Assembly: GCF_037023745.1 (NCBI RefSeq)
Contig: NZ_CP146101.1
Span: forward strand, 4,084,001-4,148,000
Origin: Streptomyces sp. SCSIO 30461
GTDB lineage: Bacteria; Actinomycetota; Actinomycetes; Streptomycetales; Streptomycetaceae
DNA length: 64,000 nucleotides
Reading direction: 5' to 3'
Part shown: positions 45,698-62,197 of the stretch, one piece after another
Position numbering within the stretch: the first letter of the stretch is position 1
Layout: the number at the start of each line of letters is the position of its first letter
The notes under the pieces: model-generated
What the model was told of the DNA's origin: nothing
What the model saw: the letters and a program-made list of their open reading frames with translations, nothing else
Database searches by the model: none
Translations under genes and position numbers: made by a program

Positions 45698-45871
45698 ATG
45701 GCCAAGACCGAGCTCGCCACCCTCGCCGACGAGATCCTGGAGTTGGAGTCGGAGACCTTCGAGATCTCGGACTACTCGGACGCGGCCGAGGTCGTACTCG
45801 CCGGTTCGTGTTCGTCCTCCTCGACCTCGACCTGCTCCAGCACCACCAGCACCACCTCCTGCAGCGCCTGA
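45698..45871 (+). CDS. RiPP precursor peptide, Ser/Thr/Cys-only core
   Basis: A 57-residue peptide with AAGGAG seven bases before its ATG. The leader (residues 1-36) is acidic with MAKTELATLADEILELE, then SETFEISDYSDAAEVVLAG, the L-E-F-I-S-D pattern seen in thiopeptide and goadsporin-type leaders and typical of RRE recognition. The C-terminal core (residues 37-57) begins SCSSSSTSTC and ends STTSCSA; in all it has 11 Ser, 6 Thr, 3 Cys (positions 2, 10, 19 of the core) and a final Ala. Cleavage after AG is the natural guess. It lies opposite to and convergent with the biosynthetic operon. YcaO, SagB and split-LanB enzymes encoded beside it could turn these residues into azoles and dehydroamino acids. 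Confidence 0.9.
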   Translation: MAKTELATLADEILELESETFEISDYSDAAEVVLAGSCSSSSTSTCSSTTSTTSCSA

Positions 45872-45892
45872 CAGCAAGTACGCGCGCACGGC

Positions 45893-45937
45893 AGCCCCTT
45901 CCCGAACCGGAGTACCATCTCCGTACGGGAAGGGGCT
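45893..45937. terminator. bidirectional terminator between precursor and operon
   Basis: A 12-bp perfect stem (AGCCCCTTCCCG at 45,893-45,904 and its complement at 45,926-45,937), with a smaller internal stem CGGAG/CTCCG in the loop. It lies between the two convergent stops, so it can end transcription from both sides. Confidence 0.85.
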
Positions 45938-45967
45938 TGTCCGTACTGTCCCCTGCGTCCTCTCCGG

Positions 45968-47965
45968 TCATGGGAACGGGTGCGGGACAGTCTTGATCTC
46001 GGCTTCCGGCAGCTCATCCGTGCGCCGGCCCGCGTCCCGCAGTCCGGCGCGCAGCCTGGGCATGCGCAGGGCGCGCTGCCTGGTCCAGCCGAAGTCGAGC
46101 GGCAGGAGCCCGGGGACGATGGTCCTGACGGTGTGCAGGCCCATGCGGCGCTGCTCGGGAGTCGTCTGGTCGACGGCGATCACGTCGAACCCGGCGCCGC
46201 ACAGTTCGTCGCGGACCAGCCACAGGTCGTCGAGTAGGTCCCCGGTGCGCGGGCGGCGGTCCTCCCAATCCTGATACAGCCGGGTGAGCGGCAGCACGGC
46301 GGTCGGGTCCAGGTACTCGGCGGCGTGGCCCGCCATGGCAGGCAGGCCGTACAGCTGGGCATGGTCCTTCAAGTGGAGGACCTTGGTGTAGTCCCGGGCC
46401 ATCTCCTCCAGTTCGGTGCGCCGTTCGGCCACCTGGTACGGCAGGTACGGAATGTAGGTCAGCACCTCGGACAGGGCTGCCTCGACCGTGCCTTCCGGGT
46501 CGAAGCCGGCAGCGGCGGCGAAGGAGAGCGTCCCGTATCCGCCGTCGCGGCGGACCGCCAGGGCGGTGACGACGGGGACGGCCGGGCCCATGCGCGTGTC
46601 GAAGGCGTGGACGTCATAGCCGTGCAGTGCGGCCCGGTCGACCATGTTGTGGATCGCGGGAGTCCGGCAGGTCGCCAGGTCGATCTCGGTGAGGCGCGCC
46701 CTGCTGTACCAGGCGAGCAGGAAGGCGTCTCGCTCGATGAGCTCCAGCAGCCCGAAGAGGATCGCCTCCTCCAGGCTGCCGCCCGTCGCACAGCCGTTGG
46801 AGCACTCGAAGACGAAGTTGTCGGCGTCGACGCCCGCGCCGTAGTGGGCGAGCCGGGCGGGGATCAGGGCGGGCTGGTCGTCGCGCAGCGAGTGCCCCCA
46901 CACCCAGGGCATCTTCCGGTCCGGGTCGAAGGGGCTGACCAGGTGGTCCTTCGCATAGGTCTCCGGCGCGTAGAAGCCGCAGTCGACGGGGTTCAGGACG
47001 CGCGCGCCGCCGGCCGCGAGGCTGCTGTACGCCTCCATGACGGGGGCGGTACCGCGGCGCCTGTGGGTGCCCGCGTAGCGTTCGAGGCCCTCCAGGTAGG
47101 CGAGATTCCTGCTGGTGTTGTAGCAGTTGGACTGTCCGCTCCAGGTGACGTCGTTCAGTCCGGCGTAGCCCCGTACGAAATGGGTGCCGGCTACCGGTGC
47201 TGTGGTCGTGGAAGCGGGGTTGATCCAGGTGTCGGAGCCGATGGCGCCGCACACGGGGTTGGCCAGGGCCGCGGTCGGGAGCGGATAGGCGTCCAGGGGT
47301 CGGATGCGGTAGCCGTCCGGTTTCGGCTTCGGTCGGGGGGCGAACGTCATACGGGCCGCTTCGGCCGTGTCGGGGCGCTCCTTCACGCAGGCGGGGCACA
47401 GCGGCTCGGGCAGCAGCGGGAACGTGGCGGTGGCCAGGGTGCCCAGGTCGACGCGGGTCACCTGCGGCAGGGACCGGTCCGCCGCTGTGAACCCCTCGGG
47501 GGCCCTGCGCGTCCCCGGCAACACCGCCAGGTATGCCGCCCAGACGGCGTCCACGGTGAAGGGGGTGAGGACCGGCCAGTCGACAGCGCCGTACGAGGGG
47601 TAGCCCAGTTCGAGCGCCTCCCGCTCCGAACGGCTGCGCAGTCGCTGCCACCGCATGGCCAGGCACTGGCCACAGGCGGCCGTTCGCGTGCCGCCGTCCA
47701 TACGACCGATGTCGCCCGCGTCGCCACCCCAGGGGCCGATGAGCACGGCACGCGAGGTGAGCTGGATGTTCGCCGCGGGCCGCTCGGCGGCGTACGGGTC
47801 CGGGACACCGCAGCCGAGGGTGTCGGCGGCGCCGAGCGGTACGACCAGGGGTACGGGGAGGTTTGGCAGAGCCGCCGTCCGGTGGCGGGCAGTGAGCTCG
47901 CACTGCAGTCGGCTCCTGGCTGTGTCCAGGGGCGCCTCTTCGCGCTCACGCACAACGCCCGTCAT
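45968..47965 (-). CDS. YcaO cyclodehydratase (first of two)
   Basis: A 665-residue TOMM cyclodehydratase that would activate backbone amides with ATP to close Cys/Ser/Thr side chains into azolines. The N-terminal part (about 190 residues) has CxxC pairs in ACGQCLAMRWQR and LCPACVKERPDTAEAA, likely a structural zinc tetrad. The YcaO domain has the ATP-binding motif SNGCATGGSLEEAI...ELIERDAF near residue 390. The protein ends PHPFP, the PxPxP tail of azoline-forming YcaO proteins. ATG 47965 overlaps the permease stop by four bases (ATGA). It is last in the operon. A second YcaO with the same design is encoded at 56,300. Confidence 0.94.
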   Translation of the reverse strand: MTGVVREREEAPLDTARSRLQCELTARHRTAALPNLPVPLVVPLGAADTLGCGVPDPYAAERPAANIQLTSRAVLIGPWGGDAGDIGRMDGGTRTAACGQCLAMRWQRLRSRSEREALELGYPSYGAVDWPVLTPFTVDAVWAAYLAVLPGTRRAPEGFTAADRSLPQVTRVDLGTLATATFPLLPEPLCPACVKERPDTAEAARMTFAPRPKPKPDGYRIRPLDAYPLPTAALANPVCGAIGSDTWINPASTTTAPVAGTHFVRGYAGLNDVTWSGQSNCYNTSRNLAYLEGLERYAGTHRRRGTAPVMEAYSSLAAGGARVLNPVDCGFYAPETYAKDHLVSPFDPDRKMPWVWGHSLRDDQPALIPARLAHYGAGVDADNFVFECSNGCATGGSLEEAILFGLLELIERDAFLLAWYSRARLTEIDLATCRTPAIHNMVDRAALHGYDVHAFDTRMGPAVPVVTALAVRRDGGYGTLSFAAAAGFDPEGTVEAALSEVLTYIPYLPYQVAERRTELEEMARDYTKVLHLKDHAQLYGLPAMAGHAAEYLDPTAVLPLTRLYQDWEDRRPRTGDLLDDLWLVRDELCGAGFDVIAVDQTTPEQRRMGLHTVRTIVPGLLPLDFGWTRQRALRMPRLRAGLRDAGRRTDELPEAEIKTVPHPFP

Positions 47966-48720
47966 GACTTGTCGCTCCAGCGGAAGGTCTTGAGCGCGAT
48001 GGCTCCGAAGAGGACGGCGCAGCCGGCGAGCACCCCGCAGGCCACCATGACGTCGGCGCCGACGCCGTCGCTGCCGGTGAGGGCGGCGGAGGTCCCGTCC
48101 ACGAGGTAGTACAGCGGCAGGGCCCTGGCAAGGGTCTGCATCCAGTCCGGCATGGCGTCCAGCGGGAAGAAGGAGCCGGACAGGAACGCCATGGGGATCA
48201 TCAGGCAGTTGGCGATCGCGGCGACCGCCTCGGGGGTCTGCGCGTATGTGCCGACGATCACCCCGATCGCCAGGAAGGCGGTGATGCCGAGGAACAGTAC
48301 CGGCAGTGCCAGCGGCCATCCGGAGGCCAGGCGCAGCCCGAACCACGGCAGCAGCGCCACCCCCACGAACAGCACGGCCTGGACGAGGCCGATGCCCAGC
48401 GCCAGGACGTAACGGGAGGCGAGCACGGCGGGGAGCCGCACCGGGGTCATGCGGATGAGGCGGAGCAGGTCGTCACGGCGCCACTGCATCAGCACGAACC
48501 CGATTCCGAAGACGGCCGCGTTGGCGATGCCCCAGGCCAGCACGCCGGGCGCGATGTAGTTGATGTAGGGCTGCCCGCTCTGCTCCACGTTCTTGCCGTG
48601 GAAGATGAGGCCGAAGACGACGAGGAAGAGGAGAGGGAAGGCGAAGGTGAAGAAGAGGGTGGCCTTGTCGCGGACGTAGGCCCGGTATCCGGCCTGGCTC
48701 AACGCGGCGTATGCGCTCAT
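47962..48720 (-). CDS. ABC-2 type transporter permease
   Basis: A 252-residue permease with six hydrophobic segments (FAFPLLFLVVFGLIFHG at the start, later VQAVLFVGVALLPWFGL, LFLGITAFLAIGVIVGTYAQ and a C-terminal VMVACGVLAGCAVLFGAIAL). The ABC-2 signature region is in TPEAVAAIANCLMIPMAFLSGSFFPLDAMPDWMQTLARALPLYY. Together with the ATPase encoded 64 bases upstream it should export the modified peptide or provide self-protection. It overlaps the first YcaO gene. Confidence 0.9.
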   Translation of the reverse strand: MSAYAALSQAGYRAYVRDKATLFFTFAFPLLFLVVFGLIFHGKNVEQSGQPYINYIAPGVLAWGIANAAVFGIGFVLMQWRRDDLLRLIRMTPVRLPAVLASRYVLALGIGLVQAVLFVGVALLPWFGLRLASGWPLALPVLFLGITAFLAIGVIVGTYAQTPEAVAAIANCLMIPMAFLSGSFFPLDAMPDWMQTLARALPLYYLVDGTSAALTGSDGVGADVMVACGVLAGCAVLFGAIALKTFRWSDKS

Positions 48721-48784
48721 GGTGGCGTATCTCTTTCGTGTACGCGTGAAACGGGGTGCGGGGGCGGTGCCGCGATGGCAGCGG

Positions 48785-49750
48785 CTACGAAGCCTCGGTG
48801 GAAGCGGGTTCCGTGGCGTTGCCGATCAGTTCGAGGTAGACGTCCTCGAGGCTGGCGGTGCGGGTCCGTACGCCCTGGAGTCCGGCGAGTGCATCGACGT
48901 GGGCCAGGACAGGGCCCGAGTCCAGGGTCTCCAGAACGATCGTGTCGCCTTCCAGGGCCACCTCCCGCACACCGGGAATGCCCCGGGCCGCCTCCAGCGT
49001 GAGCCGGCCGGCGGGCACCAGCAGCCGGGTGGTCGGACTGCCCGCGGCCACCATCCGGGCAGGTGTGTCCAGCGCGGCAAGACGCCCGGCGACGATGATG
49101 GCGACCCGGTCGCAGAGGGCCTCCGCCTCGTCCAGGTGGTGGGTGGTGTAGACGATGGTGCGGCCGGCACCCTTCAGGTCGCGCAGCACCTGCCACAGGT
49201 CCCGGCGGGCCTGCGGGTCGAGGGCCGCGGTCGGCTCGTCCAGGAAGATCAGTTCCGGATCGTGGACGAGGGCGGCGGCGACGGCGAGACGCTGGCGCTG
49301 ACCGCCGGACAGGTCCTCCACTCGGACATCGCCATGGTCGGTCAGCCGGACGGACGTCAGGGCCCGTTCGGCGGCGGCGTGTCCCGCGCCGTACAGGGCG
49401 GCGACCGTACGCAGATGTTCGCGCGCCGTCAGCCGGACGAAGAACGCCGACGCCTGGGTCTGGACTCCGACCCTCGGCAGCAGACCGACGTCGCGCGGCC
49501 AGGGGGCCCTGCCGAGGACCGACACGGAACCGGAGTCCGCCTTCCGGAGGCCCTCCATGATCTCGATGAGGGTGGTCTTGCCCGCTCCGTTGGGACCGAG
49601 CAGCCCGAAGAACTCACCGCGTGCCACCGTCACCGAGATGCCGTCCACAGCCTTGGTGGATCCGTAGTGCTTGCGCACGGAGTCGAGGACGATGGCCGGC
49701 CCGTCCTGTGCGGAGGGTGAGGCGGTGGACGTGGGATCAGTGGTGCTCAC
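48785..49750 (-). CDS. ABC transporter ATP-binding protein
   Basis: A 321-residue ATPase. Walker A is LLGPNGAGKTT near residue 54, Q-loop VGVQTQASAFF, signature EDLSGGQRQRLAVA, Walker B LIFLDEPTAALDP, and the H-loop YTTHHLDEAE. The C-terminal 90 residues form the extension common in drug-exporter ATPases (DrrA-like). The adjacent permease makes a two-component exporter. The start ATG 49750 lies 55 bases from the M50 gene stop. Confidence 0.94.
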   Translation of the reverse strand: MSTTDPTSTASPSAQDGPAIVLDSVRKHYGSTKAVDGISVTVARGEFFGLLGPNGAGKTTLIEIMEGLRKADSGSVSVLGRAPWPRDVGLLPRVGVQTQASAFFVRLTAREHLRTVAALYGAGHAAAERALTSVRLTDHGDVRVEDLSGGQRQRLAVAAALVHDPELIFLDEPTAALDPQARRDLWQVLRDLKGAGRTIVYTTHHLDEAEALCDRVAIIVAGRLAALDTPARMVAAGSPTTRLLVPAGRLTLEAARGIPGVREVALEGDTIVLETLDSGPVLAHVDALAGLQGVRTRTASLEDVYLELIGNATEPASTEAS

Positions 49751-49805
49751 GGGTCTCTCCTTGTCGGGCGGCTCACCATGTGGCGAGCCGGTGCCTTGAC
49801 GGCGC

Positions 49806-50918
49806 TCACCCGTTGGTGAGCAGGTGGTGGACGATCGCGGTGACCGCCGTGACGAGCGCGCCGAGCACGAATGGGACGCTCATTCCGTACGCGGTGTAGG
49901 CGGCACGGGCCCGTCGCGGGTACTCCCGGGCAGCAGGGTCCCGGCGTACGGCCAGCCGCAGATACGTCCGGGTTGATGCGGCCAGTTCGGTGGCGCCCGC
50001 CAGCTGGGCGGCGATCTTGTATCCGTCCAGTGGGGGCAGGGGAACGAGCATGGTGAACGCCTGTACGCTCCCGAGGAACAGGATTCCCGCGAGTGCTGCT
50101 CGGGTCCCTTCGTCTACCGGGGCGTACCACCAGACGGCGAAGAACGGCAGCAGGAACAGAAGGTTCATGACGGCACCGGCGGCCGCCGTGGCGATCCGGT
50201 GGCGGCGGGTGCCCAGATAGAGGAAGTCGTCGACGGTGCAGTACATGATGACGACCGGAAGCCGCCAGCGCAGTCCGATCTCGTGGACGTGGCCGCCGTG
50301 GTGCCGGGCGACCACCCCGTGCGCCAGTTCGTGCAGGGCGGTGCTCAGCCACAGCAGGGTCGCCGCGGCCGTCAGCAGGAACGGATCGGTGAACAGTTCC
50401 CTGGTGGCCAGGAGCAGTTCGCCGACGTGCCAGGCGAGGACGACCTCCATGGTGGCGAGCAGCACCAGCAGCGGTGCCACGCACCACGGTGACAGCAGCG
50501 GGCGCACGGCCCGGTGCAGCCGCGCGGTCGTCGCGTCCGCGTCCGCGACCAGCCGGAGACTGCCGCGCAGCACTCCGCGTGGCTCGGGTGCCGGTGCCGG
50601 GGGCCCGGCGACGGCCGGGGAGTCGGTCAGGAGCCCTCGGGTGCCGAGCATGCCCAGCAACCGCTGCCAGTGGGCGTCGGCGAGCCTGCGCCCGTATGCG
50701 CGGGCGTACTCCGAGCCGATCTCCTCCAGGGTGCGGTGCCCATCCATACGGGAGATGAGGAAGTGCTCCTTGACGCCCACCTTGAAGGACTGCCCGCTGC
50801 CGGTGTCCTTGATCAGGTGCACGGTGTTCCTGCCGTGCAGGAACGCGTCGCTGATCAGGACCCCGGGGCGCAGCCGAGGCCGGTACGCCGTGAAGGCGGA
50901 GGGAGTCGGGGCGGTCAT
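49806..50918 (-). CDS. PqqD-like / M50 zinc metalloprotease membrane protein
   Basis: A 370-residue protein with two parts. Residues 15-95 (NTVHLIKDTGSGQSFKVGVKEHFLISRMDGHRTLEEIGSEY) resemble the winged-helix PqqD/RRE fold used to hold leader peptides. The rest is a polytopic M50 domain: HELAHGVVARHHGGHV (HExxH zinc site near residue 195) and VPLPPLDGYKIAAQ (the third ligand region, LDG). It is therefore a candidate leader peptidase acting within or near the membrane, bound to the leader by its own N-terminus. ATG overlaps the upstream gene (ATGA). Its role in this cluster is inference; similar proteins occur in other RiPP loci. Confidence 0.85.
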   Translation of the reverse strand: MTAPTPSAFTAYRPRLRPGVLISDAFLHGRNTVHLIKDTGSGQSFKVGVKEHFLISRMDGHRTLEEIGSEYARAYGRRLADAHWQRLLGMLGTRGLLTDSPAVAGPPAPAPEPRGVLRGSLRLVADADATTARLHRAVRPLLSPWCVAPLLVLLATMEVVLAWHVGELLLATRELFTDPFLLTAAATLLWLSTALHELAHGVVARHHGGHVHEIGLRWRLPVVIMYCTVDDFLYLGTRRHRIATAAAGAVMNLLFLLPFFAVWWYAPVDEGTRAALAGILFLGSVQAFTMLVPLPPLDGYKIAAQLAGATELAASTRTYLRLAVRRDPAAREYPRRARAAYTAYGMSVPFVLGALVTAVTAIVHHLLTNG

Positions 50919-51955
50919 CGCGGCTCTCGCAGGGCGCGGCCCAGGACATGGGCGAGGTAGGCCTCGTCGCGGATGGTCACATGCAGCCGGTTGTTGGTCA
51001 TATGCATGTACGGAGAGAGCAGGCGAGGCAGCGCCACGGCGGGGTCGGTGACGCGCTCGTCGCGTTCGCCGTCCCACGACCGGAACACCAGGTCGCCGTC
51101 GTCGGCCAGGGTGCGGGCACGGTCCCGGAGTTCGGCGCAGTGATCGGCCCAGTCGGCGAGGAACGCGGGGAGACGGGGCGTGTCGTCTCCGCCGGCGACG
51201 GCGTTGCGGACGGCGGCGAAGCGGGATGCGAGCTTCGGCGCCATGGCCGCGTAGTTCGTGTCGTATTCCTCGCTGCCGATGAAGCCGGTACCGGGGAAGG
51301 CCCGGTGCCAGAACGCGTAGTAACTGTCCAGGTAGTCGGCCAGCTCGTCGTCGCCAGGCAGGAAGGAGCAGGACATGACCATCATCAGTTGCGCCGACGT
51401 GCCGAGCAGCACGGTTCGCAGGTGCAGGTTCTTGGTACGGAAGGCCTCGATGACCAGATCGCTGGAGTGCCGGAAGTGCCATTCGGCCAGCTCGATTCCG
51501 GCCGGACCACCGTACTTGCCGTATTCCGGCTCGTACTCGGTCGGGCTGCGGGTGTTGTTGGGCCGCAGCCGCATCCGGCCCTGGTCGTCGGTGTAGCGGG
51601 CGCGCTCGCCGGCGGGGTACTCGATCTCGAAGAGCGTGTTGTAGAACTCGCTGAGGAAGCCCGAGTCGACCTCGTACAGGGCGGGGCGCTCCGCGAGGAA
51701 CGCGTCGACGGCCGCTTCGGTACGGCGCCGGACCTCGTCCTCCGCATCCGGGGAGGAGGGCTTGATCCGCAGGCGGACATGGGGGCCTTCGAGCCAGTAG
51801 TTGATGAAGAAGTAGCCGTCGATGAGCCCGTCCGCCTCCAACCCGGCCACAAGGGGACGGATGCAGTGGAGCAGCATGGGGCGGGGGTTGGCGGCGTAGA
51901 AGACGTGGGTGGCCTGCCAGGCCCCGGTGCCCGTACGTGTTCCGGTCGTCGTCAT
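50915..51955 (-). CDS. stand-alone LanB elimination domain (thiopeptide-type, SpaB_C)
   Basis: A 346-residue SpaB_C-family protein. Segments typical of the glutamate-elimination domain are HVFYAANPRPMLLHCIRPL, FFINYWLEGPHVRLRIKP (the PHxRLR Arg/His pair), TEYEPEYGKYGGPAGIELAEWHF and the C-terminal HMTNNRLHVTIRDEAYLAH. It should remove glutamate from glutamylated Ser/Thr to give Dha/Dhb. A homologous fold also catalyses the [4+2] cycloaddition in thiopeptides, but the YGG...AEWHF pattern fits elimination better. Only one such gene is present. It is overlapped by its neighbours on both sides by ATGA and is co-translated with the LanB glutamylation protein. Confidence 0.88.
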   Translation of the reverse strand: MTTTGTRTGTGAWQATHVFYAANPRPMLLHCIRPLVAGLEADGLIDGYFFINYWLEGPHVRLRIKPSSPDAEDEVRRRTEAAVDAFLAERPALYEVDSGFLSEFYNTLFEIEYPAGERARYTDDQGRMRLRPNNTRSPTEYEPEYGKYGGPAGIELAEWHFRHSSDLVIEAFRTKNLHLRTVLLGTSAQLMMVMSCSFLPGDDELADYLDSYYAFWHRAFPGTGFIGSEEYDTNYAAMAPKLASRFAAVRNAVAGGDDTPRLPAFLADWADHCAELRDRARTLADDGDLVFRSWDGERDERVTDPAVALPRLLSPYMHMTNNRLHVTIRDEAYLAHVLGRALREPR

Positions 51956-54666
51956 CCGTGGTGGTTCCTTCCTGCGGTGCGGGCGGCGGTCGCCGTCTCC
52001 ACGGCGAGTTCCGAGACATGGCGGCCCCGGTCGGACACGGTGTGCAGGGCGTCCTCGTCGGGCAGCATCTCCCGGAACACGACCCGGGACTCCGCCGTCC
52101 TGATCAGCCCCTCGAACGCGGAGAGCGACAGAGGGCTGTCGAAGTCCACGTACTGTGGCTTCGCGGCGGTGGCGCCCCGGGCACCGGAGTCCGAGACGGT
52201 GGCGAACACTCGGTCCGGCAGACCGTGTGCGCGCCGGAAGCGGTGCCAGCCGAGGAATCGTTCGGCGTCCGGCACAGAGGGCCCGGCCAGCGGCAGCCGG
52301 CCGGCCGGACAGCTCCAGCTGCGGCGGCTGAGCACCACGCTGCCGTGTCTCACGCGCGGCCGTCCGGTGACGCCGTCGTCCGGCTCGCCCTCGGGGACAC
52401 CGCCCCAGACGTCGAGCGGTGCGATGGACGTCGGAGAGAGCAGCAGCAGGGTGCGGGGCAGTTCGGGGAGGGCGAGCGGCACCAGGTAGCCGAGGTAGAC
52501 CGGCACCACCTCGCGGCCGAGCCGGACCGAGCGCAGCACCAGCCGGTCGGCTCGCTCGTCGTGCTCGATGCAGAGGCTGTCGAGTGGGATGCGGAACTGC
52601 GGGTCCAGCGTGCCGCTTTCCCCCGGGCAGACGATCTCGTGTGACGTGAGTCGGCCGTGGAGGTTGAGGTTGCTGGTTACCGGGCCACCCGTCACCTCTG
52701 CGAAGACTGCGCCTTCCGGCCGGATGTCCTCCGCCCGGCGCAGCAGTCGCTCCTCGATGCCGTCGAAGCAGTGGGTGAAGCGGCTGAAGGGAAAAGAGAG
52801 CCCCCCGTATGAGCGGTTGAGCACGGCCAGCGGACGGCCGTCTCCGCGGTCGGCCAACTGGAGGTGATGGCTCATGGGCAGGAAGTCGGCTGTCACGGGG
52901 ACCAGTGCGGAGGCGACCTCGTCGATGAGGGCGTCGTCCACGACGAGCTCTTCCCCGTCCCTGGCGTCCCACAGGGCCCGCATCCTCGTGACGAAGGTCT
53001 CGCGGGCGGTGTCGAGTGCTTTCAGCTGCGGCAGTCCCAGCCAGTTCACCTCGGGGACGTAGCGGCCTCGGGCATCGAAGGGGGTGCGGCCGGAGGTGAA
53101 GCTCAGATACTGGTCGAAGAAGTCCTCGTGGAAGTCATGGACCAACTTCAGCAGGTCGTCGCAGCGGCCGCCCTGCCCGTACCGGGCGAGGAAGAACCCC
53201 TTGAAGGTGATGCGCTGCGGCAGCGTCAGGTCGAAGGCGGGCAGGATCCGCTCCACCTGGCGCAGGGGATGCTCGATCTGTTCGGCCCACAGTCTCGGCC
53301 CCAGGGTCGTCGGAGGGCCCGCCGCGACGTCCTCGTACAACACGGTCTGCGGGACTCTGCCCTTCTCGGCACCCAACTCCTGCTGAATGCAACTCAGTTC
53401 GTCTCTCAGTTCGCGCAGCAGCGCGGTGCGGGCGGCCGGGGCGGCCTTGCCGAATCGGTCGACGCACTCAGCGGCCGCTTCGAGCCGGCCGGCCAGTGTG
53501 CTCGCCCAGGGACGGCCGAGGTCCCGCAGGGACTCCTGGAACGCCCGTAGCGGATCGGTGTCGTGCACCTCGGTCCGCAGGCATGGGACCTGCACCATGC
53601 CCACGTCCAGCAGGGCTTGGAGGTACTGGGCGCACTCCTCGTCGCCGGCGTCCCGGTCGGCGGCGAGCCAGTCGGCCAGCTCGGCGAACCGCACGGTCTC
53701 CCGCTTCTCGAAGAGCCCGAGCAGCCTCTCCAGGGTGCCGCTGCGGCGCAGAAAGAACAGCCGGTCCTTGACCGCGTCGAAGGTGACCGCCGTGTCGTCG
53801 TCGCCTGCCGTCACCCATCGGCGCACATAGCGCACCCGTTCGCCGTCCCTGCCCCAGCCGGAGGCCAGGGACACGGGCAGGTCGGCGCGGCGGGCCGGGT
53901 CGGCGACGACGGTCTCCGCGAGTCGGCGCAGTGCCACGACGTTCAGGCGGGGATGGCTGGTCCACTCCTGCGCGATCCTCACCTCCAGTCCGCCCGCCGG
54001 AGACTGCAGGTCGGCACGCTCGCCGGACCAACCGAACTCGGCCCGCTCGCCGAACTCACCGAACGCGACCCCGGTGAAGGTCGAGAACGGGCTGGTCTTA
54101 CAGGCCGTCCGATACAGGTACGACAGCAGAGAACGCTCGATCTTGCGAGTCCTCCTGTCCGGGCGGGCGTCCGGCGCCGCAGTCGTCTTCCGTAGGTAGG
54201 TGTCGAGTCGGGCGTCCAGGGCGGGTGAGGCGAGCAGCAGGCCCTTGCGCAACCGCTCCTCGCCCGCCAGTCGGCACAGCGCGGCGCGGCTGCGGGCGGT
54301 CTCGACCGCGAGCAGTCCCGCTCCCTGCGCGCTGCGGGCCGCGAGGCCGCGGCGTGCGGCGAGCCAGTCCGCCAACGCCTCTCCCACCGCCTGGTCCAGG
54401 CCGGTCACCAGGGACAGCGCCGCCTCGGCATCGCCCGGCAGGCGGTTGTTGAAGACGTCCCGGCGCAGCTTCAACAGTGCACGGCGCCCTGCGTCTTCGG
54501 CACATCGCCCGATCAAAGGGTGCAGCAGATCACCCAGTGCTGCGCCCGCAACGCCCAGTCGGTCACCGGTCGCAAGGACGTCGTCGGCCCAGCGGCGGCT
54601 GTCCGGGCAGCGCAGCTCACGTACGGTGTCGATGGGCAGCCCGGCGACCCGGAGCATGAACGGCAT
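51952..54666 (-). CDS. LanB glutamylation-domain dehydratase
   Basis: A 904-residue lantibiotic-dehydratase N-terminal domain (Lant_dehydr_N), the tRNA-Glu-dependent enzyme that glutamylates Ser/Thr of the precursor. Signature pieces are PFMLRVAGLPIDTVREL at the start, LLSYLYRTACKTSPFSTFTGVAFG near residue 190, PQRITFKGFFLARYGQGGRC in the middle and AVLNRSYGGLSFPFSRFTHCF later. It lacks the elimination domain, which is encoded by the next gene, so this is a split LanB as in thiopeptides and goadsporin. ATG 54666 (MPFMLRVAG) is preferred over upstream starts because it begins at the family motif. The core peptide has 17 possible Ser/Thr targets. Confidence 0.94.
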   Translation of the reverse strand: MPFMLRVAGLPIDTVRELRCPDSRRWADDVLATGDRLGVAGAALGDLLHPLIGRCAEDAGRRALLKLRRDVFNNRLPGDAEAALSLVTGLDQAVGEALADWLAARRGLAARSAQGAGLLAVETARSRAALCRLAGEERLRKGLLLASPALDARLDTYLRKTTAAPDARPDRRTRKIERSLLSYLYRTACKTSPFSTFTGVAFGEFGERAEFGWSGERADLQSPAGGLEVRIAQEWTSHPRLNVVALRRLAETVVADPARRADLPVSLASGWGRDGERVRYVRRWVTAGDDDTAVTFDAVKDRLFFLRRSGTLERLLGLFEKRETVRFAELADWLAADRDAGDEECAQYLQALLDVGMVQVPCLRTEVHDTDPLRAFQESLRDLGRPWASTLAGRLEAAAECVDRFGKAAPAARTALLRELRDELSCIQQELGAEKGRVPQTVLYEDVAAGPPTTLGPRLWAEQIEHPLRQVERILPAFDLTLPQRITFKGFFLARYGQGGRCDDLLKLVHDFHEDFFDQYLSFTSGRTPFDARGRYVPEVNWLGLPQLKALDTARETFVTRMRALWDARDGEELVVDDALIDEVASALVPVTADFLPMSHHLQLADRGDGRPLAVLNRSYGGLSFPFSRFTHCFDGIEERLLRRAEDIRPEGAVFAEVTGGPVTSNLNLHGRLTSHEIVCPGESGTLDPQFRIPLDSLCIEHDERADRLVLRSVRLGREVVPVYLGYLVPLALPELPRTLLLLSPTSIAPLDVWGGVPEGEPDDGVTGRPRVRHGSVVLSRRSWSCPAGRLPLAGPSVPDAERFLGWHRFRRAHGLPDRVFATVSDSGARGATAAKPQYVDFDSPLSLSAFEGLIRTAESRVVFREMLPDEDALHTVSDRGRHVSELAVETATAARTAGRNHHG

Positions 54667-54676
54667 CTCGGCCCCC

Positions 54677-56263
54677 TCAGGCGATCTCGTACCGGAAGTC
54701 GGCCGGGGTGGGCCGCTCATGGCCGATCATCATGATCAGGAGTGGTGCCTCGCCGGTCTCCTGGAGACCGAGCTCCTCGATGTACGAGATGTTGTCGAAG
54801 CCCAGGGCGACTCCGCAGCCCAGCTCCATGGCGGAGGACGCCGTGTAGACGGCCTGCGACACGGCACCTACGGTGGCGTTGACGAGGCGGTAGCCGCGGT
54901 CGCCGACGGCATCGAGCACGGCGGTGGTGCGGATGGTCGGCACCAGCACCGCCCCGGCCTGTTCCAGGTTGTAGTTCGCCAAGAAGTAGTTCCGCTGGAG
55001 GAAGGCACCGGGGCTGCCCTCGGTGACGGACCCGAGGCAGTGGGCGTCGGGGTCGTAGGCGTACGCGCCCGGGGCGAGGCCGTCGACGTGGTTGACGAAG
55101 GCGTACAGGTTGACGAGCCGGGTCTCGCCCGTGCCGGTGTCCCCTCCGAGCCGGGCCCCCGCCATTGCGGCCTTCAGGCATGCCGCCAACTGGTCCTGGC
55201 CGACGGGCCGCCCCACCTCGAAGCGGCCGAAGCTGCTGCGGCGGCGGCGCAGCGCGGTACGCACGTCCGTGTCCAGCGGCCGGGGTGCGGACAGCGGGAC
55301 CTCGGTGCGGCTCGGTCCGGGGTCCGGAGCGGCAGAGGCGAGCGCTCCGGAGGCGGGACGCCGCGCGGCGTGCTCGGCGGTGACCGTCTGCATCCGCGTG
55401 ACGGCGTCGAAGGTGAGCACGGTGCGAGACCGCTCGGCGTCCCGGTGGCGTACGGCCGCCGGGACAGGGGCCGACGTGGTGCGGGCGCCGCGCCATCGCA
55501 GGGGGACGACCGCGAAGACGCCCTCCTGCTCGGTCCGTATGCCGAGCAGCCGGGCCAGCCGCTCCTCGTCGAACCACATCAGCGGCTCGACCTCCAGGCC
55601 CCTGGCCCGGGCCCACATGCGCCAGGTCTGCACAACGGTGCCGACGTCCATGCTGACTGCGTGGAAGGAGAAGCTGTTGTACTTGAAGGCGTTCTGCCAG
55701 TACTTGACCGCGAGCACCACGAACTGGTCGGTCGCACCGGCGCCCGGGGCGGTGTCGCCCAGGGCCGCGCGCAACTCGCCCGACACATCGCCGGTCAGCA
55801 GTCGCTGCATGGCGTGGTGGCGGGTCGCGTAGTAGTGGACGCCAGGCGGTACGGGCCCGCTGGGGCCGGAGACCCAGTAGACGCTCACGGGGTAGAGGCC
55901 GCCACCTGACGCCGTGCCCCGGGACCAGTTGGCGAGCGGATAGCTCGGCAGACTGGCGAGGTCCGTGTTGGCCTGGACACCCAGGCGGCGGCCGGTCAGC
56001 CCGTACGAGTCGTACAGCATCCCGGACAGCGCTTCCAGGTCGAACATCCCGTCGGCCGGGCCGGCGTCCGGGCCCAGTTCCAGGCCCCGGTCGAGCGACG
56101 CGTCCGCCGGATAGCCGCTGCCGGGCAGCGGCATGGTGTCCACACCCGGGTAGTACTTGGTCTTGCGGGGGCCGTCGGCCCAATCAGGCACGAATGCGGC
56201 GGGTTCCATCGCGACCCGCCCGCGCCGCATGATCGCGGCCGCGTACTCTTGGGCGTATCCCAT
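54677..56263 (-). CDS. SagB-type azoline dehydrogenase
   Basis: A 528-residue FMN-dependent nitroreductase-fold protein of the SagB/ThcOx type that oxidises azolines to aromatic azoles. The N-terminal half has KYYPGVDTMPLP, RRLGVQANTDLAS and NWSRGTASGGGLYPVSVYWV (the FMN-contact S-GG-LYP motif). A linker of about 40 Pro/Ala-rich residues leads to a second nitroreductase-like half (TDVRTALRRRRSSFGRFEVGRP, RLVNATVGAVSQAVYTASSAMELGCGVALGFD). Tandem architecture is known for several TOMM oxidases. Ten bases separate its stop from the LanB ATG. It predicts thiazoles/oxazoles rather than azolines in the product. Confidence 0.92.
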   Translation of the reverse strand: MGYAQEYAAAIMRRGRVAMEPAAFVPDWADGPRKTKYYPGVDTMPLPGSGYPADASLDRGLELGPDAGPADGMFDLEALSGMLYDSYGLTGRRLGVQANTDLASLPSYPLANWSRGTASGGGLYPVSVYWVSGPSGPVPPGVHYYATRHHAMQRLLTGDVSGELRAALGDTAPGAGATDQFVVLAVKYWQNAFKYNSFSFHAVSMDVGTVVQTWRMWARARGLEVEPLMWFDEERLARLLGIRTEQEGVFAVVPLRWRGARTTSAPVPAAVRHRDAERSRTVLTFDAVTRMQTVTAEHAARRPASGALASAAPDPGPSRTEVPLSAPRPLDTDVRTALRRRRSSFGRFEVGRPVGQDQLAACLKAAMAGARLGGDTGTGETRLVNLYAFVNHVDGLAPGAYAYDPDAHCLGSVTEGSPGAFLQRNYFLANYNLEQAGAVLVPTIRTTAVLDAVGDRGYRLVNATVGAVSQAVYTASSAMELGCGVALGFDNISYIEELGLQETGEAPLLIMMIGHERPTPADFRYEIA

Positions 56264-56299
56264 GACGTGCTCCTCGGTGGCTCGGTCGGTAGGGGGCGC

Positions 56300-58228
56300 T
56301 CACGGGAAAGGGTGCGGCGCGGGGTTGAAGTCGGCGGGTACGAGGTCGTGATCACGCAGCCCGGCCTCGCGCAGGGCGGTGCGCAGGCGGGGCATGCCCA
56401 GCGCGCGCTGGCGTGTCCGGCCGAAGTCGATCGGCAGGAGCCCGGGCACGATCACGCTGACCGTGGTCAGTCCCAGGTCCCGCTGTTCCGGCATGGTCTG
56501 GTCGACCACGATCACGTCGAACCCGGCGCCGGTGACCGCCTTGACGCACCACTCCAGGTCGTCCCGCAGATCGTCCGACACCTCGGGCGCCGGACAGCGC
56601 GCGTCCGCGCCGTAGAGCTCCGTGAAGGACCGCCGGGGCTTCCTGGGCGCGCCGGGCTCCCCGATCAGGAAGTGCGCGTGTTCGCCCATCTCCGGGACGC
56701 CGTACGCGAGCGGGTGGTCGTGCAGGGCCTCGACCTTGTCGAAGTCGTCCGCCATGGCCCGCAGTCGCTCCCAGTCGCGCTCCGTGCGGCTTTGGAGATT
56801 CACCGCGTCGGTCGCGATCTCGCACAGGGCACCGGCAAGCGCGGCCTCCGGGTCGAGTCCGGCGCCGCCGCCGAAGCACATGCGGCCGAGGCCGCCGTCG
56901 GGGCGTACCGCGACGCCGGTCACGACCGGGATCGGGAAGGTGATCCGGGTATCGAAGAAGCGGGCCTCGTAGCCGTACATCTCCAGCCGGTCCACCATGG
57001 CCCGGGTGGCCGGGCGGGCGCTGGTGCGGGGATCGATCTCGGGGAGTGCGGCCCGGCCGTACCAGGTGAGCAGGAAGGCGTCGCGCTCCACGACCTCCAT
57101 GAGGCCGCAGTACACGGCCTCTTCGAGGCAGCCACCGGAGGCGCAGCCGTTGGATGACTCCTGGACGAAGCGGTTCTCCAGCCCCGGTGCGTGGTAGTAC
57201 GTCAGCACCTCGGGGACCAGGACCGGTTGCCGGTCGGCGAGCGAATAGCCCCAGACCCAGGGGATCTCGCGGTCGGGACGGAACGGTGCGACGGCGGGGT
57301 TGGCGCGGTGGAAGGCGTCGGAGTACAGGCCGCAACGGCGGGGGTCCAGTGCCGCCTTGCCCTGATTGCGAAGGCCCTCCAGGGAGTCCAGCACCCCTGC
57401 CCGCCTGGTGCGGGCGCGCATGCCGGCGTAGCGCTCCAGTCCTTCCAGGACCCCGATGCGCATGCTCTGGGCGAATGTGTCGGCATGGCCGCCCCAGAAC
57501 GTCTCCCGGAGGTAGGCGCCCGAGCGCATGGAGAAGCAGCCGATGGTGGCGGAGGTGGACAGGGAGGACACGTCCTGGACGACGGACGACCCCAGGGACC
57601 CGCAGACGGGGTTGGTGTAGGCCTCGGGGGGGAGGTCGTAGGCACCGGCGTCCCGGACGCGGAAACTGCCGGGACGGTGCTTGGGGGCGGAGCGCAGGCG
57701 CAGGACGGCGGCCTCGGGAGTGTCGGGTTCGGGCTCCGCGCAGGCGGGGCACTCGGGGTCCGGCACCAAGGGGTAGGCGCGGGAACGGAGCGTCTCCAGG
57801 TCCACGACGTGGACGAGCGGGTAGGCGCCGGTGACGGGCCCTGTGCCACCGGAGGCGCGGGCGGCGATCAGCCCCGCGAGAGCTTCGGCGGCGAACGGGG
57901 TCAGGTACGGGGTCTCCCCCGCCGCCCGGGTACCGGCACCCAGTTCCAGCGCCTCACGCAGGGGGACGGAGCGGACCGCCTGCCAGCGGCGGTCCAGGCA
58001 CAGGCCGCACGGGCGCCGCACGTCGCGAGCCGTCCCGCTGAACGGCCCGACGATGACCTGACGGCCGTAGTGCCGTACGGGCACGGCTGCGAACCGGCGG
58101 TCGCCGTCCGCCTTGAAGGCGTCTCGGACACCAAGGGGCGCGACGTCGAGTTCCACGCTGACGCCGTACCGGGCGAGTGCGACGTGCAGCTCCTGCTCCA
58201 GGCGGCGCGTCGCGTCAGTCACGGGCAT
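56300..58228 (-). CDS. YcaO cyclodehydratase (second of two)
   Basis: A 642-residue protein with the same plan as the first YcaO. The N-terminal region contains PCGLCLDRRWQ and ECPACAEPEPDTPEAA (CxxC pairs). The YcaO core has SNGCASGGCLEEAV...EVVERDAFL near residue 360, and the tail ends PAPHPFP. The two YcaO proteins differ clearly, so they are old paralogues and not a recent duplication. One may act on Cys and the other on Ser/Thr, or they may work as a pair with the ThiF-like protein. ATG 58228 lies 14 bases inside the ThiF gene, suggesting coupled translation. Confidence 0.94.
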   Translation of the reverse strand: MPVTDATRRLEQELHVALARYGVSVELDVAPLGVRDAFKADGDRRFAAVPVRHYGRQVIVGPFSGTARDVRRPCGLCLDRRWQAVRSVPLREALELGAGTRAAGETPYLTPFAAEALAGLIAARASGGTGPVTGAYPLVHVVDLETLRSRAYPLVPDPECPACAEPEPDTPEAAVLRLRSAPKHRPGSFRVRDAGAYDLPPEAYTNPVCGSLGSSVVQDVSSLSTSATIGCFSMRSGAYLRETFWGGHADTFAQSMRIGVLEGLERYAGMRARTRRAGVLDSLEGLRNQGKAALDPRRCGLYSDAFHRANPAVAPFRPDREIPWVWGYSLADRQPVLVPEVLTYYHAPGLENRFVQESSNGCASGGCLEEAVYCGLMEVVERDAFLLTWYGRAALPEIDPRTSARPATRAMVDRLEMYGYEARFFDTRITFPIPVVTGVAVRPDGGLGRMCFGGGAGLDPEAALAGALCEIATDAVNLQSRTERDWERLRAMADDFDKVEALHDHPLAYGVPEMGEHAHFLIGEPGAPRKPRRSFTELYGADARCPAPEVSDDLRDDLEWCVKAVTGAGFDVIVVDQTMPEQRDLGLTTVSVIVPGLLPIDFGRTRQRALGMPRLRTALREAGLRDHDLVPADFNPAPHPFP

Positions 58229-60398
58229 GGGCAGCGTCCTCGGGGTCGGTCGTGAGGAGGACGTAGGCCGCGCTGATGCCACCCGACGGCAGGTCGGCGG
58301 GGGTCGTCGGGACATGGAGGGCGTCCCGGCCGGCGGCCCGGAGGCGGTCCAGGATCGTCGGGAAGTCCGTCGTGACCGCGTTCACGGCCATCGGCCGGCC
58401 GGTGACCGCGATCGTCTCCGGCGCCAGGTCGCCCAGCAGCGGGTCACCGAGGTCCACCGCGGTACCGGGGTCCTCCGCCGCCAGTTGGACCCCGCCCAGG
58501 AGATCGCGGAGAGCCGAGCAGGCCGCTGCCCGGCCGGACAGTCCGGCGCCGACCGCCCAGCGGCCGTCGGCGGCCCTGGCCAGGACGGTGTGCGCCGAAG
58601 TACGTGCGGCCTCGCCCAGGTCGAGCAGTTCGACGTCGACGCCCAGGGTGCGGGCCGACTTGAGCAGGAAGACCGACTCCGGGGCGTCGTCCGCCTCGTC
58701 GGCGGCCAGCAGCCGCACCTGTGTCGCTCCGCGGACCGCGCGCAGCAGGGCGTCGTGGCTCAGCGCCGACAGCAGGCCCCGGCCCGCCGCCGTCTGAGGG
58801 GTGGGGCCGGCCCCGGCCCCCGCGCGGGTGGCGAGGATCGACCGGGCCCGGTTGTGCTCCCCGAAGGGACGTACCGCGGCCGTGGGGACCCGGATCGGCT
58901 CCTTGGTGAGGAGGGAGGTCGCGATGGTCCACGACGTGACCGTCCCGCCCTTGCCGCCGCCGGTCGTCAGCCGATCGGGGCCGAGCGCGGTGGCGACGTC
59001 CCTGCCCGACGCCCCGGCGTCGGCCGGCACCACATGCTCGACGTACGTCTCGGCAGCCGCGTACAGCGCCCTCATCCGCGCACCCGCCAGATGGTGCACG
59101 TCGAAGGCGGCGATCGTGCGCCGTACGCCGGCTCCGAGGGCGACCTCGACCCGGCTGATCTTGAGGGGGGTCTGGGTGATCTGCTCGTCGTCGTAGCGGC
59201 GGAAGACTCCCGTGTACGGACGGACCAGCGCGCCGCTGATCCGGTTGAGGTCCTCGACAAGGGTCTCGGCGTCGCGTGCGGTCTCCACGGTCGCGGTGGC
59301 GGGGAGAGCGAGTTCGTCGGGGAGCGGGGAGCCCCCGGTGGTGGTGAGCGCGGCGCAGCGGCGGCAACGGGGATGGGGCAGCACAGGCTCGGCGACGACG
59401 TCCAGCGACTCCAGGTCCTGCACGAGGACCTGCTGCCTGGTTTCGGGCGGCAGGGCTTCGGTGGTGAGCCGGAAGACCTCGTAGCCGAGGAGGTTGCCGG
59501 TCATCGAGGCGACGGGCCCGGTCGGCAGTACCCGGCTTGCCCGGGGCGTGACGCTGCCGGTGACGGTGGCCCAGAGATCGGCGGCGGCTCCCTCGTCGGT
59601 GTTGCCGCCGAGCCGCAGGGCCGCGCAGGTCCAACAGCCGGTGGAGGTGGCGGTGGCGAGCGGGCCGGTGACGGTGTGTCCGCCGAAGCCCCAGGTGGGG
59701 ATGAGGGTGTGCCCGTCGGGCACGCCCTCGGTGAGCAGCCGCCGGGTGGTGGCCGCCGCTTCGGAGCCGGTGACGACGACGACTTCGTAGCCGGTGAGCT
59801 CCGGCCACCCGGACACCGCGGGCAGTCGGGCTATGCGCACCGGGCTGTCGTCCGCGTCGAGTTCGCCGGCCTCGCGAGCCACGTCGGGGAAATCGGTGGT
59901 GACGGCGATGTGGGCACAGCCGTTGCGGACCAGGCTGAGCGCGCACCAGCGGGCGACGTCGTCTTCGCCGAGGACCGCGACACGCGTGTCCCGGAAGCGG
60001 GCGAAACGCGCGGGCGCTCCGTCGGAGTAGTGGTCGATGTACGCGATCTGTGCGGAGAACCGGCGGGCCGGGCCGGTCGTGGCGCCCGGTTCGGCGGTGT
60101 CCTTCTCAGGGACGTCGCGGGCGAAGTCGCGCTCGTAGAGGGTCTTCACCAGTTCCGCCGCCATGGCGCGCTGGGGCGGTCCGAAGCCTTCGCAGATGTC
60201 GCCCAGGGTGTGCTGTCCGGCAAGGTGCGGGACGAGGAGGGAGGCGAAGCGGTAGGCGGTGCGGCCCGTGAGGTGGAAGCCGCCGTCCGCGTTGTGGAAC
60301 AGCACGCCGCCGGGGGTCTCGGTGAACAGCACGTCCCTGCGTATGCGGGGCCGGGTCGCTGCGAGTGCGTCGAACGTGGTGTCGACCATGGGGGTCAC
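58215..60398 (-). CDS. Ocin-ThiF-like TOMM leader-binding protein
   Basis: A 727-residue F-protein/E1-like partner of YcaO. The first 90 residues (FTETPGGVLFHNADGGFHLTGRTAYRFASLLVPHLAG, LGDICEGF) resemble an RRE winged helix that binds leaders. A ThiF-like Rossmann region follows (FRDTRVAVLGEDDVARWCALSLVRNG). Two CxxC pairs (TGCWTCAALRLGG and RCRRCAALTTTGG) should hold zinc. It probably presents the precursor to the cyclodehydratase; the ATP-binding residues of true E1 enzymes are not evident. GTG at 60398 overlaps the SARP stop (GTGA). ATG 60389 is an alternative start. Confidence 0.88.
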   Translation of the reverse strand: MTPMVDTTFDALAATRPRIRRDVLFTETPGGVLFHNADGGFHLTGRTAYRFASLLVPHLAGQHTLGDICEGFGPPQRAMAAELVKTLYERDFARDVPEKDTAEPGATTGPARRFSAQIAYIDHYSDGAPARFARFRDTRVAVLGEDDVARWCALSLVRNGCAHIAVTTDFPDVAREAGELDADDSPVRIARLPAVSGWPELTGYEVVVVTGSEAAATTRRLLTEGVPDGHTLIPTWGFGGHTVTGPLATATSTGCWTCAALRLGGNTDEGAAADLWATVTGSVTPRASRVLPTGPVASMTGNLLGYEVFRLTTEALPPETRQQVLVQDLESLDVVAEPVLPHPRCRRCAALTTTGGSPLPDELALPATATVETARDAETLVEDLNRISGALVRPYTGVFRRYDDEQITQTPLKISRVEVALGAGVRRTIAAFDVHHLAGARMRALYAAAETYVEHVVPADAGASGRDVATALGPDRLTTGGGKGGTVTSWTIATSLLTKEPIRVPTAAVRPFGEHNRARSILATRAGAGAGPTPQTAAGRGLLSALSHDALLRAVRGATQVRLLAADEADDAPESVFLLKSARTLGVDVELLDLGEAARTSAHTVLARAADGRWAVGAGLSGRAAACSALRDLLGGVQLAAEDPGTAVDLGDPLLGDLAPETIAVTGRPMAVNAVTTDFPTILDRLRAAGRDALHVPTTPADLPSGGISAAYVLLTTDPEDAAHARD

Positions 60399-62197
60399 GC
60401 TCTCTCTGTGGTCTCGGGGCGTGGGCCGCCTGCTGCGGCGGCTCTGCGGGCGTACGCGCGAAGCAGTTCGTGCACTCGGTAGGGGCCGGGGGGCCCCTCT
60501 TCCAGGAACCCGGCGTCGACCAGCCGTTCCAGGAGTTCCTCGGCCTCGGCGGCGCCGGTACCGAGGGCGGAGACGCCGTCCTGGGCCGGGAAGGCGGCCG
60601 CCGGCAGGGAGCCGACCCCCACGAAGGCGTCGGCCAGTCGGGGGGCGAGCCGGTCGAGGGCGGCGTCGAGCACCCGGATGACGGACAGCCCCGGGTCGTC
60701 CGCCAGGGAGAGCCGGGCCAGCGGGTCGTCGGCCAGCCAGCCCGCGGCGTCCGCGAGACCGAGCGCGGGACGGGTCAGCAGCCTGGCCGCGATGATGCGC
60801 AGAGCGAGCGGGAAATACCCGCACAGCGCGGCGAGTCGGCGTGCCGCGGCCTCTTCCGGCTTGACCCGTTCGGCACCGATGGTGGCGACGAGCAGTCGGT
60901 GCGCGTCCTCCTCTTCGAGGGTGGACAGTCGGTGGACGCGACCGCCGTGGGTGGCCACCAGGCCGGCGAGTCCCCTGCGGCTGGTGATGATCACGGCCCC
61001 GCCGGACACTGCCGGGAGCAGCGGCCTGACCTGGCCGGCGTCGACGACGTCGTCCAGGACGAGAAGCACCGGAGCGCCGGGTTCGCGGACCCGCAAGGCC
61101 GTCTCCACCGCGGCGGCGGCCTCGGTGGCGTCGCGCGGCCGGCCGTCGGGGTGCACCATCGGCACGTGCAACCGCCCGCCGGGGAACCTGTCCCGTACCC
61201 GGTGGGCGACGTGGTGGGCGAGTGCGGACTTGCCTATACCCGGGGCGCCCGAGAGCAGGATCGTCACGGCCTCGTCGCGGGCCTCGGTCAGCTCGGCCTC
61301 CATTGCGGCGGTCTCGGCCGCTCTGCCGGTGAAGGAGGGCACGGGGGGCACCGGAACCACCGGAAGCGGCGGGTCGCCGCGGTCCTCGGCCGGGGATCGG
61401 CGGACATCCGCCGTGCCGATCGCGGCAACTGCCCGCACGCCGTCGGCCGACGGCCCCAGGTCGTCGCCTCGGAGGATGGCCAACTCGAGCCGGCGCAACC
61501 CCGGGGAAGGGTCGACACCCAGTTCCGCGAGCAGGTACCCCTTGACCCGCCGGTATTCGGTCAGCGCCTCGCTCTGCCGCCCGCTGCGGTACAGCGCCTC
61601 TATCAACTGCTCGTGGAACCGCTCGTTGCCGGGGTGGGCACGTGTCTCGCTCCACAACGCCACCAGTGCCTCCCCGCAGCGGCCGAGTGACAGTTCGAGA
61701 TCGCAGACGCGCTGCACGGTGCGCAGCCGCTCCTCGACCAGCCGCGGAGCCTCGTCCCGGTGCAGCACCTCAGAGCGGACGTTGGCCAGCAGCGAGCCGT
61801 GCCACAACGCCAGCGCATCCTTGAGCGCGCGTAGCTCCAACTCCGGGGTGTGGGCGAGACGGGCTGCGTGGCGTACCCCGTCCCGGAACCCGATCACGTC
61901 GAGGCTCCGCGGTCCCGCGCTGATCCGGTAGCCGCCGGGGACCGCTTCGATCGGGGTGTCCACCACTCCGTGCTTGACGAAGAGCCGCCGCAGGCGCAGG
62001 ACGCAGGTCTGCAGCGCCGCCTTCGCCGCGGCCGGTTGTTCCTCACCCCAGATGGCTCGCTGCAGATACTCGGCGGACACCACGCCGTTCGCATTCAACA
62101 GCAGAGCGGCCAGCAGGTTGGTCGGTTTGGAAGGTGGGAGCACGACGCTTTCCATGCCGTCCGTGATGCTCAACGGCCCCAGTACCTCGAATCGCAT
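60395..62197 (-). CDS. SARP/AfsR-type pathway regulator
   Basis: A 600-residue regulator. The N-terminal OmpR-like DNA-binding domain (MRFEVLGPLSITDGMESVVLPPSKPTNLLAALLL...VPGGYRI) is followed by the bacterial activation domain (EALRALKD...-type TPR, LIEALYRSGRQSEALTEYRRVKGYLLAELGVDPSP). An NB-ARC ATPase comes next, with Walker A SGAPGIGKSALAHH near residue 316 and LLVLDDVVDAGQV. ATG 62197 marks the domain start. As first gene of the operon, overlapping the ThiF gene, it is very likely its activator. Three TTGTCA hexamers in phased arrangement lie about 460 bases upstream. Confidence 0.94.
   Translation of the reverse strand: MRFEVLGPLSITDGMESVVLPPSKPTNLLAALLLNANGVVSAEYLQRAIWGEEQPAAAKAALQTCVLRLRRLFVKHGVVDTPIEAVPGGYRISAGPRSLDVIGFRDGVRHAARLAHTPELELRALKDALALWHGSLLANVRSEVLHRDEAPRLVEERLRTVQRVCDLELSLGRCGEALVALWSETRAHPGNERFHEQLIEALYRSGRQSEALTEYRRVKGYLLAELGVDPSPGLRRLELAILRGDDLGPSADGVRAVAAIGTADVRRSPAEDRGDPPLPVVPVPPVPSFTGRAAETAAMEAELTEARDEAVTILLSGAPGIGKSALAHHVAHRVRDRFPGGRLHVPMVHPDGRPRDATEAAAAVETALRVREPGAPVLLVLDDVVDAGQVRPLLPAVSGGAVIITSRRGLAGLVATHGGRVHRLSTLEEEDAHRLLVATIGAERVKPEEAAARRLAALCGYFPLALRIIAARLLTRPALGLADAAGWLADDPLARLSLADDPGLSVIRVLDAALDRLAPRLADAFVGVGSLPAAAFPAQDGVSALGTGAAEAEELLERLVDAGFLEEGPPGPYRVHELLRAYARRAAAAGGPRPETTERA

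Follow-up and report, generated by a model that had tools for sequence, protein, structure and literature searches.

Goadsporin, encoded by godA-H, is a linear ribosomally synthesized and post-translationally modified peptide (RiPP) with azoles and dehydroalanine (Dha), whose cluster combines a YcaO protein, a SagB enzyme and a split LanB (PMC5303826) and is described as having no [4+2] enzyme (PMC4603692); in the published account, Dha formation is directed by the azoles (PMC5303826). The [4+2] reaction of thiopeptides is reported to coincide mostly with loss of the leader (PMC7136475), thiopeptide clusters are said occasionally to contain an additional fused cyclodehydratase (PMC4603692), and the geninthiocin B cluster is described as encoding the pyridine-forming GenD plus a dehydratase C-terminus, GenC (PMC6306032). 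Two YcaO proteins occur together with lanthipeptide-like dehydratases, and with no [4+2] enzyme, in the coryneazolisins described by Cox et al. in 2015 (PMC4603692); linear azole/dehydro peptides, the spongiicolazolicins, have been reported from Streptomyces sp. CWH03 (PMC8838263, PMC11583998), and the daptide leader is removed by MpaP, an intramembrane peptidase dependent on a RiPP recognition element (RRE) (PMC10036551). Here we analyze a cluster of twelve genes (44163-62197) in a 64,000-nucleotide stretch of the genome of Streptomyces sp. SCSIO 30461 (NZ_CP146101.1, forward-strand positions 4,084,001 to 4,148,000), referred to as the window, in whose numbering all coordinates are given; genes lie on the minus strand unless stated otherwise. 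Its product is likely to be a linear, pyridine-free azole/dehydroamino-acid peptide, made from a thiopeptide-like precursor whose leader is cut by an RRE-M50 protease.

The PF14028 fold is common to the elimination domains of LanB and to [4+2] pyridine synthases, and the label given to the single PF14028 protein of the cluster (50915..51955; PF14028 142 bits), a stand-alone LanB C-domain, therefore matters. A contig scan of public genomes with this protein as query returned 152 relatives, 80 of which were kept. The direct results of this work are the genes present and their synteny, the assignment of families and motifs, the number of PF14028 proteins per locus and the co-occurrence of genes. 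On NF045556 (TbtD_PbtD_pyrid), the curated pyridine-synthase model, the PF14028 protein scores 95.8 bits, and 94.5 bits over profile positions 1-276 in the scan of its genome, against a cut-off of 325. That cut-off is passed in 24 of 249 family genomes, at 392-450 bits, and at least 15 of these 24 genomes hold a neighboring second protein that scores 90-111 bits on the same model, mostly over profile positions 1-268. The cluster's protein is the only NF045556 match in its genome (seven of ten candidates scored), and no pyridine synthase above the cut-off was found there.

Phylogeny and motif content both bear on the same choice. In a tree of 29 proteins (six true pyridine synthases, four lower-scoring pyridine-side proteins, ten locus partners, one other protein of the source genome and eight cluster relatives), for which the program warns of long branches, a split with 100/97 support places the cluster proteins on the elimination side. 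The motif H[ML]xxNRL is found in all six elimination proteins and in none of the six pyridine synthases from six over-cut-off loci, and is present in the aligned cluster relatives; with 18 added loci it occurs in 21 of 24 elimination partners (missing in L151, L152 and L167) but in none of the 24 pyridine synthases. Its His, Asn and Arg are invariant in 37/37 relatives of the cluster's PF14028 protein, and we take the His to correspond to the essential His961 of NisB. Four further loci, L119-L122, whose pyridine-side protein falls under the cut-off, have the motif on the elimination side (4/4) and not on the pyridine side (0/4), which is not independent support because the sides were assigned from the same tree and motif. 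The protein thus groups with glutamate-elimination proteins, and an elimination domain, the label of the first-pass annotation, is its most likely identity; tree side, motif and sub-cut-off NF045556 score all point that way.

The cluster might instead be that of a true thiopeptide, with a macrocyclic product and, as its PF14028 protein, a pyridine synthase that has diverged and may be bifunctional. Among curated NCBIfam models the protein does match TbtD_PbtD_pyrid best, though under the cut-off of 325, and TbtD/PbtD provide both its best PDB folds and its best PDB sequence match; the precursor, moreover, is of a thiopeptide-type family. Yet elimination partners from true thiopeptide clusters score alike on NF045556, and the one tested likewise matches TbtD best; fold comparison alone does not discriminate. 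Further arguments against a thiopeptide are the elimination-side placement with the His motif present, and gene number: a single PF14028-type protein occurs in 58/58 relatives versus two in 24/24 true pyridine-synthase loci. Together with the additional RRE-M50 peptidase, and with a first core residue that is not a fixed Ser (see below), these observations make a thiopeptide unlikely, and a linear, pyridine-free product remains the preferred reading.

The proposed leader peptidase (49806..50918; PF02163 33.5 bits, cut-off 27.2) has an RRE fold at its N-terminus joined to a site-2 protease core. In fold comparison, residues of about 12-100 of its model align to RRE/PqqD structures and those of about 118-368 to site-2 proteases, and a profile match links it to 3b4r (E 1.7e-5); the PqqD-like part, already named in the first-pass annotation, is invisible to Pfam and was recovered by this comparison. 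HExxH and P[LF]DG are kept in 77/77 relatives with a long match. The M50 protein is present in the loci of 58/58 relatives, in 10/11 distant relatives and in both of the other YcaO loci tried, but in none of the 24 true pyridine-synthase loci and none of the four loci L119-L122. It scores 89.8 bits on model NF041824, below the 300-bit equivalog cut-off.

The precursor gene (45698..45871) is the only plus-strand gene of the set. Its 57-residue product consists of a leader followed by a predicted 21-residue core, SCSSSSTSTCSSTTSTTSCSA, made up entirely of Ser, Thr and Cys with a terminal Ala (monoisotopic mass 1961.71 Da when unmodified, to be reduced by about 20.03 for every azole and 18.01 for every dehydration), and exceeds the cut-offs of both thiazolylpeptide precursor models, TIGR03892 (thiopep_precurs; 46.1 bits, cut-off 25) and NF033400 (38.6 bits, cut-off 30). 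The search found 151 precursor homologues at E <= 1, which source databases name thiazolylpeptide-type bacteriocin, a name that favors the thiopeptide alternative. Since the homologues were gathered by similarity, the set is biased towards conserved cores. Among 118 of 120 listed homologues used for column counts, positions -14, -11, -9 and -7 to -3 hold a single residue in at least 113, and positions -21 to -18 are variable. Cores were delimited in two ways, by matching a S/C/T/G/A pattern and by a leader pattern with no limit on composition, each giving 61 cores. These come from 59 of the 80 loci and comprise 51 DNA sequences encoding only 8 peptides, with 16 of 21 positions invariant; by the leader pattern, all 61 are 21 residues long and none contains Ile. 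Such constancy of peptide over varied DNA indicates that the core is under purifying selection, and would fit a conserved target or a conserved signal rather than a diversifying antibiotic. Two relatives, L035 and L068, carry two precursor copies per cluster, with slightly different cores. No characterized product with this core was found in the open-licence literature that was searched, MIBiG and subscription journals lying outside the search.

A Ser at the first core position is needed for [4+2] cyclization. With the core start placed after the LAG/LAS-type site, 36 of the 98 precursors (of 120) in which that site was matched have a core that begins with Cys, unlike this requirement. Since a [4+2] enzyme seems to be lacking, the leader would not be expelled by cyclization, and its removal may fall to the RRE-M50 protein.

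Chemical steps and their order, the division of labor between the YcaO proteins, the roles of the M50 and M20 peptidases, and the linearity and function of the product are here modeled on homologues. The F protein (58215..60389), of the Ocin-ThiF-like, leader-binding kind (TIGR03882 53.3 bits, cut-off 36.9; TIGR03693 83.2, under cut-off; PbtF structure 8t19, E 3e-5), would bind the leader, and two paralogous fused cyclodehydratases, YcaO-A (56300..58228; TIGR03604 311.3 bits, TIGR03882 107.7 bits) and YcaO-B (45968..47965; TIGR03604 314.4 bits, cut-off 219; TIGR03882 87.7, cut-off 36.9), both predicted to be of C-D azoline-forming type, would make azolines on Cys, Ser and Thr. A SagB-type azoline dehydrogenase using flavin mononucleotide (54677..56263; TIGR03605 141.7 bits, cut-off 78.4) would then oxidize the azolines. 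Remaining Ser and Thr would be glutamylated by a LanB N-domain protein (51952..54720; PF04738 151 bits), presumably in a tRNA-Glu-dependent manner, and the PF14028 protein would eliminate glutamate to yield Dha and dehydrobutyrine. The RRE-M50 protein would recognize the leader and cut it within the membrane, and the product would be exported by an ATP-binding cassette (ABC) pair, a DrrA-like ATPase (48785..49750; PF00005 99.2 bits; TIGR01188 218 bits, under its cut-off) and an ABC-2 type permease (47962..48720; PF01061 96.8 bits). These two proteins match only ATPase or permease Pfam families and no peptidase family. An M20 peptidase (44163..45413; PF01546 94.3 bits, PF07687 38.7 bits) may trim a terminus of the product or otherwise hydrolyze it.

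The two YcaO proteins share 42.6% identity and both end in PHPFP, and at least 97% of the 70 relatives of YcaO-A and the 69 of YcaO-B keep ExxER together with associated acidic and amide positions. In a YcaO tree the two are sister clades (96/98), separate from ten YcaO proteins of pyridine-synthase loci, the next row being L124, a long-branched YcaO of the source genome that is weakly placed (87/84). A duplication within this lineage is therefore the probable origin of the pair, and retention of both copies suggests that YcaO-A and YcaO-B split the work. A third, partial YcaO-like domain forms the C-terminus of the F protein (58257-58946, residues 482-711; PF02624 51.1 bits), where few polar residues are conserved, and is probably degenerate and inactive.

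Matches in Pfam and NCBIfam confirm the genes that the first-pass annotation had named, each present with an uninterrupted frame, and the family assignments support its prediction of a RiPP cluster forming azol(in)es and dehydroamino acids. Ten genes run in one direction, from a regulator of the Streptomyces antibiotic regulatory protein (SARP) family with an NB-ARC ATPase domain (60395..62197; PF03704 (BTAD) 124 bits, PF00931 46.9 bits) to YcaO-B, each frame either overlapping the next by 4-44 bases or leaving a gap of 5-64; 96 bases separate YcaO-B from the precursor. The tight packing remarked on earlier is thus real, neighbors between 45698 and 62197 overlapping by 4-44 bases or standing 5-96 apart. 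The cluster had also been called complete, and here all the listed genes held up but the M20 peptidase gene, 284 bases from the precursor start and syntenic in 55/57 relatives, had been overlooked, and the boundary is to be moved to 44163. None of the twelve genes contains a TTA codon (a link to bldA), none of the twelve proteins matches LanC cyclases, a mark of class I lanthipeptides, and Rfam at gathering cut-offs gave zero matches within the window. A gene for a VanZ-family membrane protein (63161-63685; PF04892 77.1 bits) adjoins the cluster.

It seems very improbable that the source genome holds a decayed or inactive copy of the cluster. The window's exact core is admittedly rare, found in only 2 of the 61 cores of relatives; against decay, however, stand twelve open genes with zero internal stops and a third-position GC content of 0.83-0.94 in each, enzyme motifs that are retained, and the purifying selection on the core indicated by the relatives.

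Synteny was counted in the 57 of the 80 relatives with at least 9 kb on either side. The F protein, YcaO-A, SagB, LanB, PF14028, M50 and ATPase genes are each present in 57/57, those for SARP, permease and YcaO-B in 56/57, and the precursor in 52/57. All 11 non-precursor genes have identical order and strand in 54/57, which excludes a chance grouping, and every precursor found (52/52) is flanked by YcaO-B and M20 and runs on the strand opposite to theirs. Elsewhere, in L075, L076, L081 and L088, a precursor match lies by its coordinates about 1.3-1.7 kb outside the fetched sequence on the SARP side, assuming the same contig. A homologue of the PF14028 protein in a single frame at 53% identity or more occurs in 40 of 246 sampled Streptomyces genomes, the source genome included (about one in six), and is split over two frames in one additional genome of the 246; outside the genus, 8 genomes of a class-wide sample of 394 have one at 43-55%, which as a sample sets a lower bound on host range. 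So widespread and stereotyped a cluster is no oddity of the source genome. Eleven distant relatives have two YcaO proteins (five loci) or one (six loci), several with 2-3 short open reading frames (ORFs) with Ser/Thr/Cys-rich tails. Five of the distant relatives, L144-L147 and L149, combine one YcaO, M50, LanB and an elimination protein with 1-3 Cys-richer precursor-like ORFs, possibly a state that preceded the YcaO duplication.

About a sixth of the sampled genomes of the genus carry the PF14028 homologue, yet the literature searched gave no product, and the precursors are annotated as thiazolylpeptide. If the proposed pathway is right, many predicted thiopeptides are none; pyridine synthase and RRE-M50 protease would then alternate as two exchangeable endings of one azole/dehydro pathway. 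With the sister YcaO pair one could test directly how a single all-Ser/Thr/Cys substrate is divided between two cyclodehydratases, and the sharing of Ser and Thr between azole and dehydro enzymes has been stated to be not yet known (PMC10676384). More tentatively, and with some doubt on our part, the loci, which databases list among thiopeptides, may form a distinct, widespread actinobacterial class of pyridine-free RiPPs, in which an RRE-guided intramembrane protease replaces expulsion by [4+2] cyclization and sister cyclodehydratases write a fixed azole/dehydro pattern on a near-invariant Ser/Thr/Cys core.

Among described systems, the cluster shares with thiopeptides the precursor type and, with the pyridine-synthase loci compared, homologous YcaO, SagB-like, LanB and elimination proteins, but it lacks a second PF14028 protein, has the RRE-M50 protein instead, and lies in a genome with no over-cut-off [4+2] pyridine synthase of the TbtD/TclM type. 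The daptide peptidase MpaP is of the same protein kind as the cluster's M50 protein (NF041824), though the latter falls under the equivalog cut-off, and the twelve genes have no matches to the daptide aminotransferase, methyltransferase and alcohol dehydrogenase families. Dehydrazoles (PMC10676384) were considered and rejected, as they are described as using a DUF4135/LanM-type enzyme and the sole characterized one as having an NHLP leader.

Spongiicolazolicins invite a closer look, since the S. pacificus CWH03 genome carries the cluster too (L022). Its only other YcaO locus, L130 on contig 1, encodes a YcaO, an elimination-type protein and an M50 protein of model NF041824 (139.5 bits), along with three precursor-like ORFs whose tails are rich in Ser and Gly. 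Spongiicolazolicins are described as 28-29 residues long with unmodified residues, which does not fit a 21-residue core of Ser, Thr and Cys; the cluster was therefore rejected as their source, and L130, a better match to the lengths and the tripeptide pattern that have been published, is the likely spongiicolazolicin locus. The source genome has a second RiPP cluster outside the window (L123, C1:6346001-6366000), with a YcaO, a LanB match, an elimination-type protein, an NF041824-model M50 protein (134.8 bits) and three short ORFs that end, much like those of L130, in tails rich in Ser, Gly and Cys; at these two loci as well, an NF041824-model M50 protein thus has a YcaO and an elimination-type protein in its vicinity.

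The first-pass annotation matched this exact set to no described pathway and suggested a possible new subclass or member; the gene set does differ from the systems compared, but it is widespread, and a two-YcaO kind has been published as the coryneazolisins. The cluster could accordingly be a Streptomyces branch of that known family of dehydrated thiazole/oxazole-modified microcins, with which it shares two YcaO proteins, lanthipeptide-like dehydratases, a core rich in Ser, Thr and Cys and the lack of a [4+2] enzyme (PMC4603692). Coryneazolisins are, however, reported from Corynebacterium and set apart by their published description, in which one D protein is discrete and one C-fused, from distinct groups, and the core is interrupted by Ile; here both YcaO proteins are C-D fused sisters and 0/61 cores located by the leader motif hold Ile, and we judge membership of that family quite unlikely. 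A linear azole/dehydro peptide with its own leader peptidase is the reading we retain, and goadsporin is a close parallel, likewise with YcaO, SagB and split LanB and no pyridine synthase. The published goadsporin account names one cyclodehydratase (GodD), an ABC transporter (GodB) whose peptidase domain probably removes the leader, and an N-acetyltransferase (GodH), whereas the cluster has two YcaO proteins, an F protein, RRE-M50 and M20 peptidases and a peptidase-free ABC pair, with no acetyltransferase match in Pfam among its twelve genes. By its gene content, the cluster would thus be best filed under the dehydrated linear azole peptides, as a variant, rather than under the thiopeptides.
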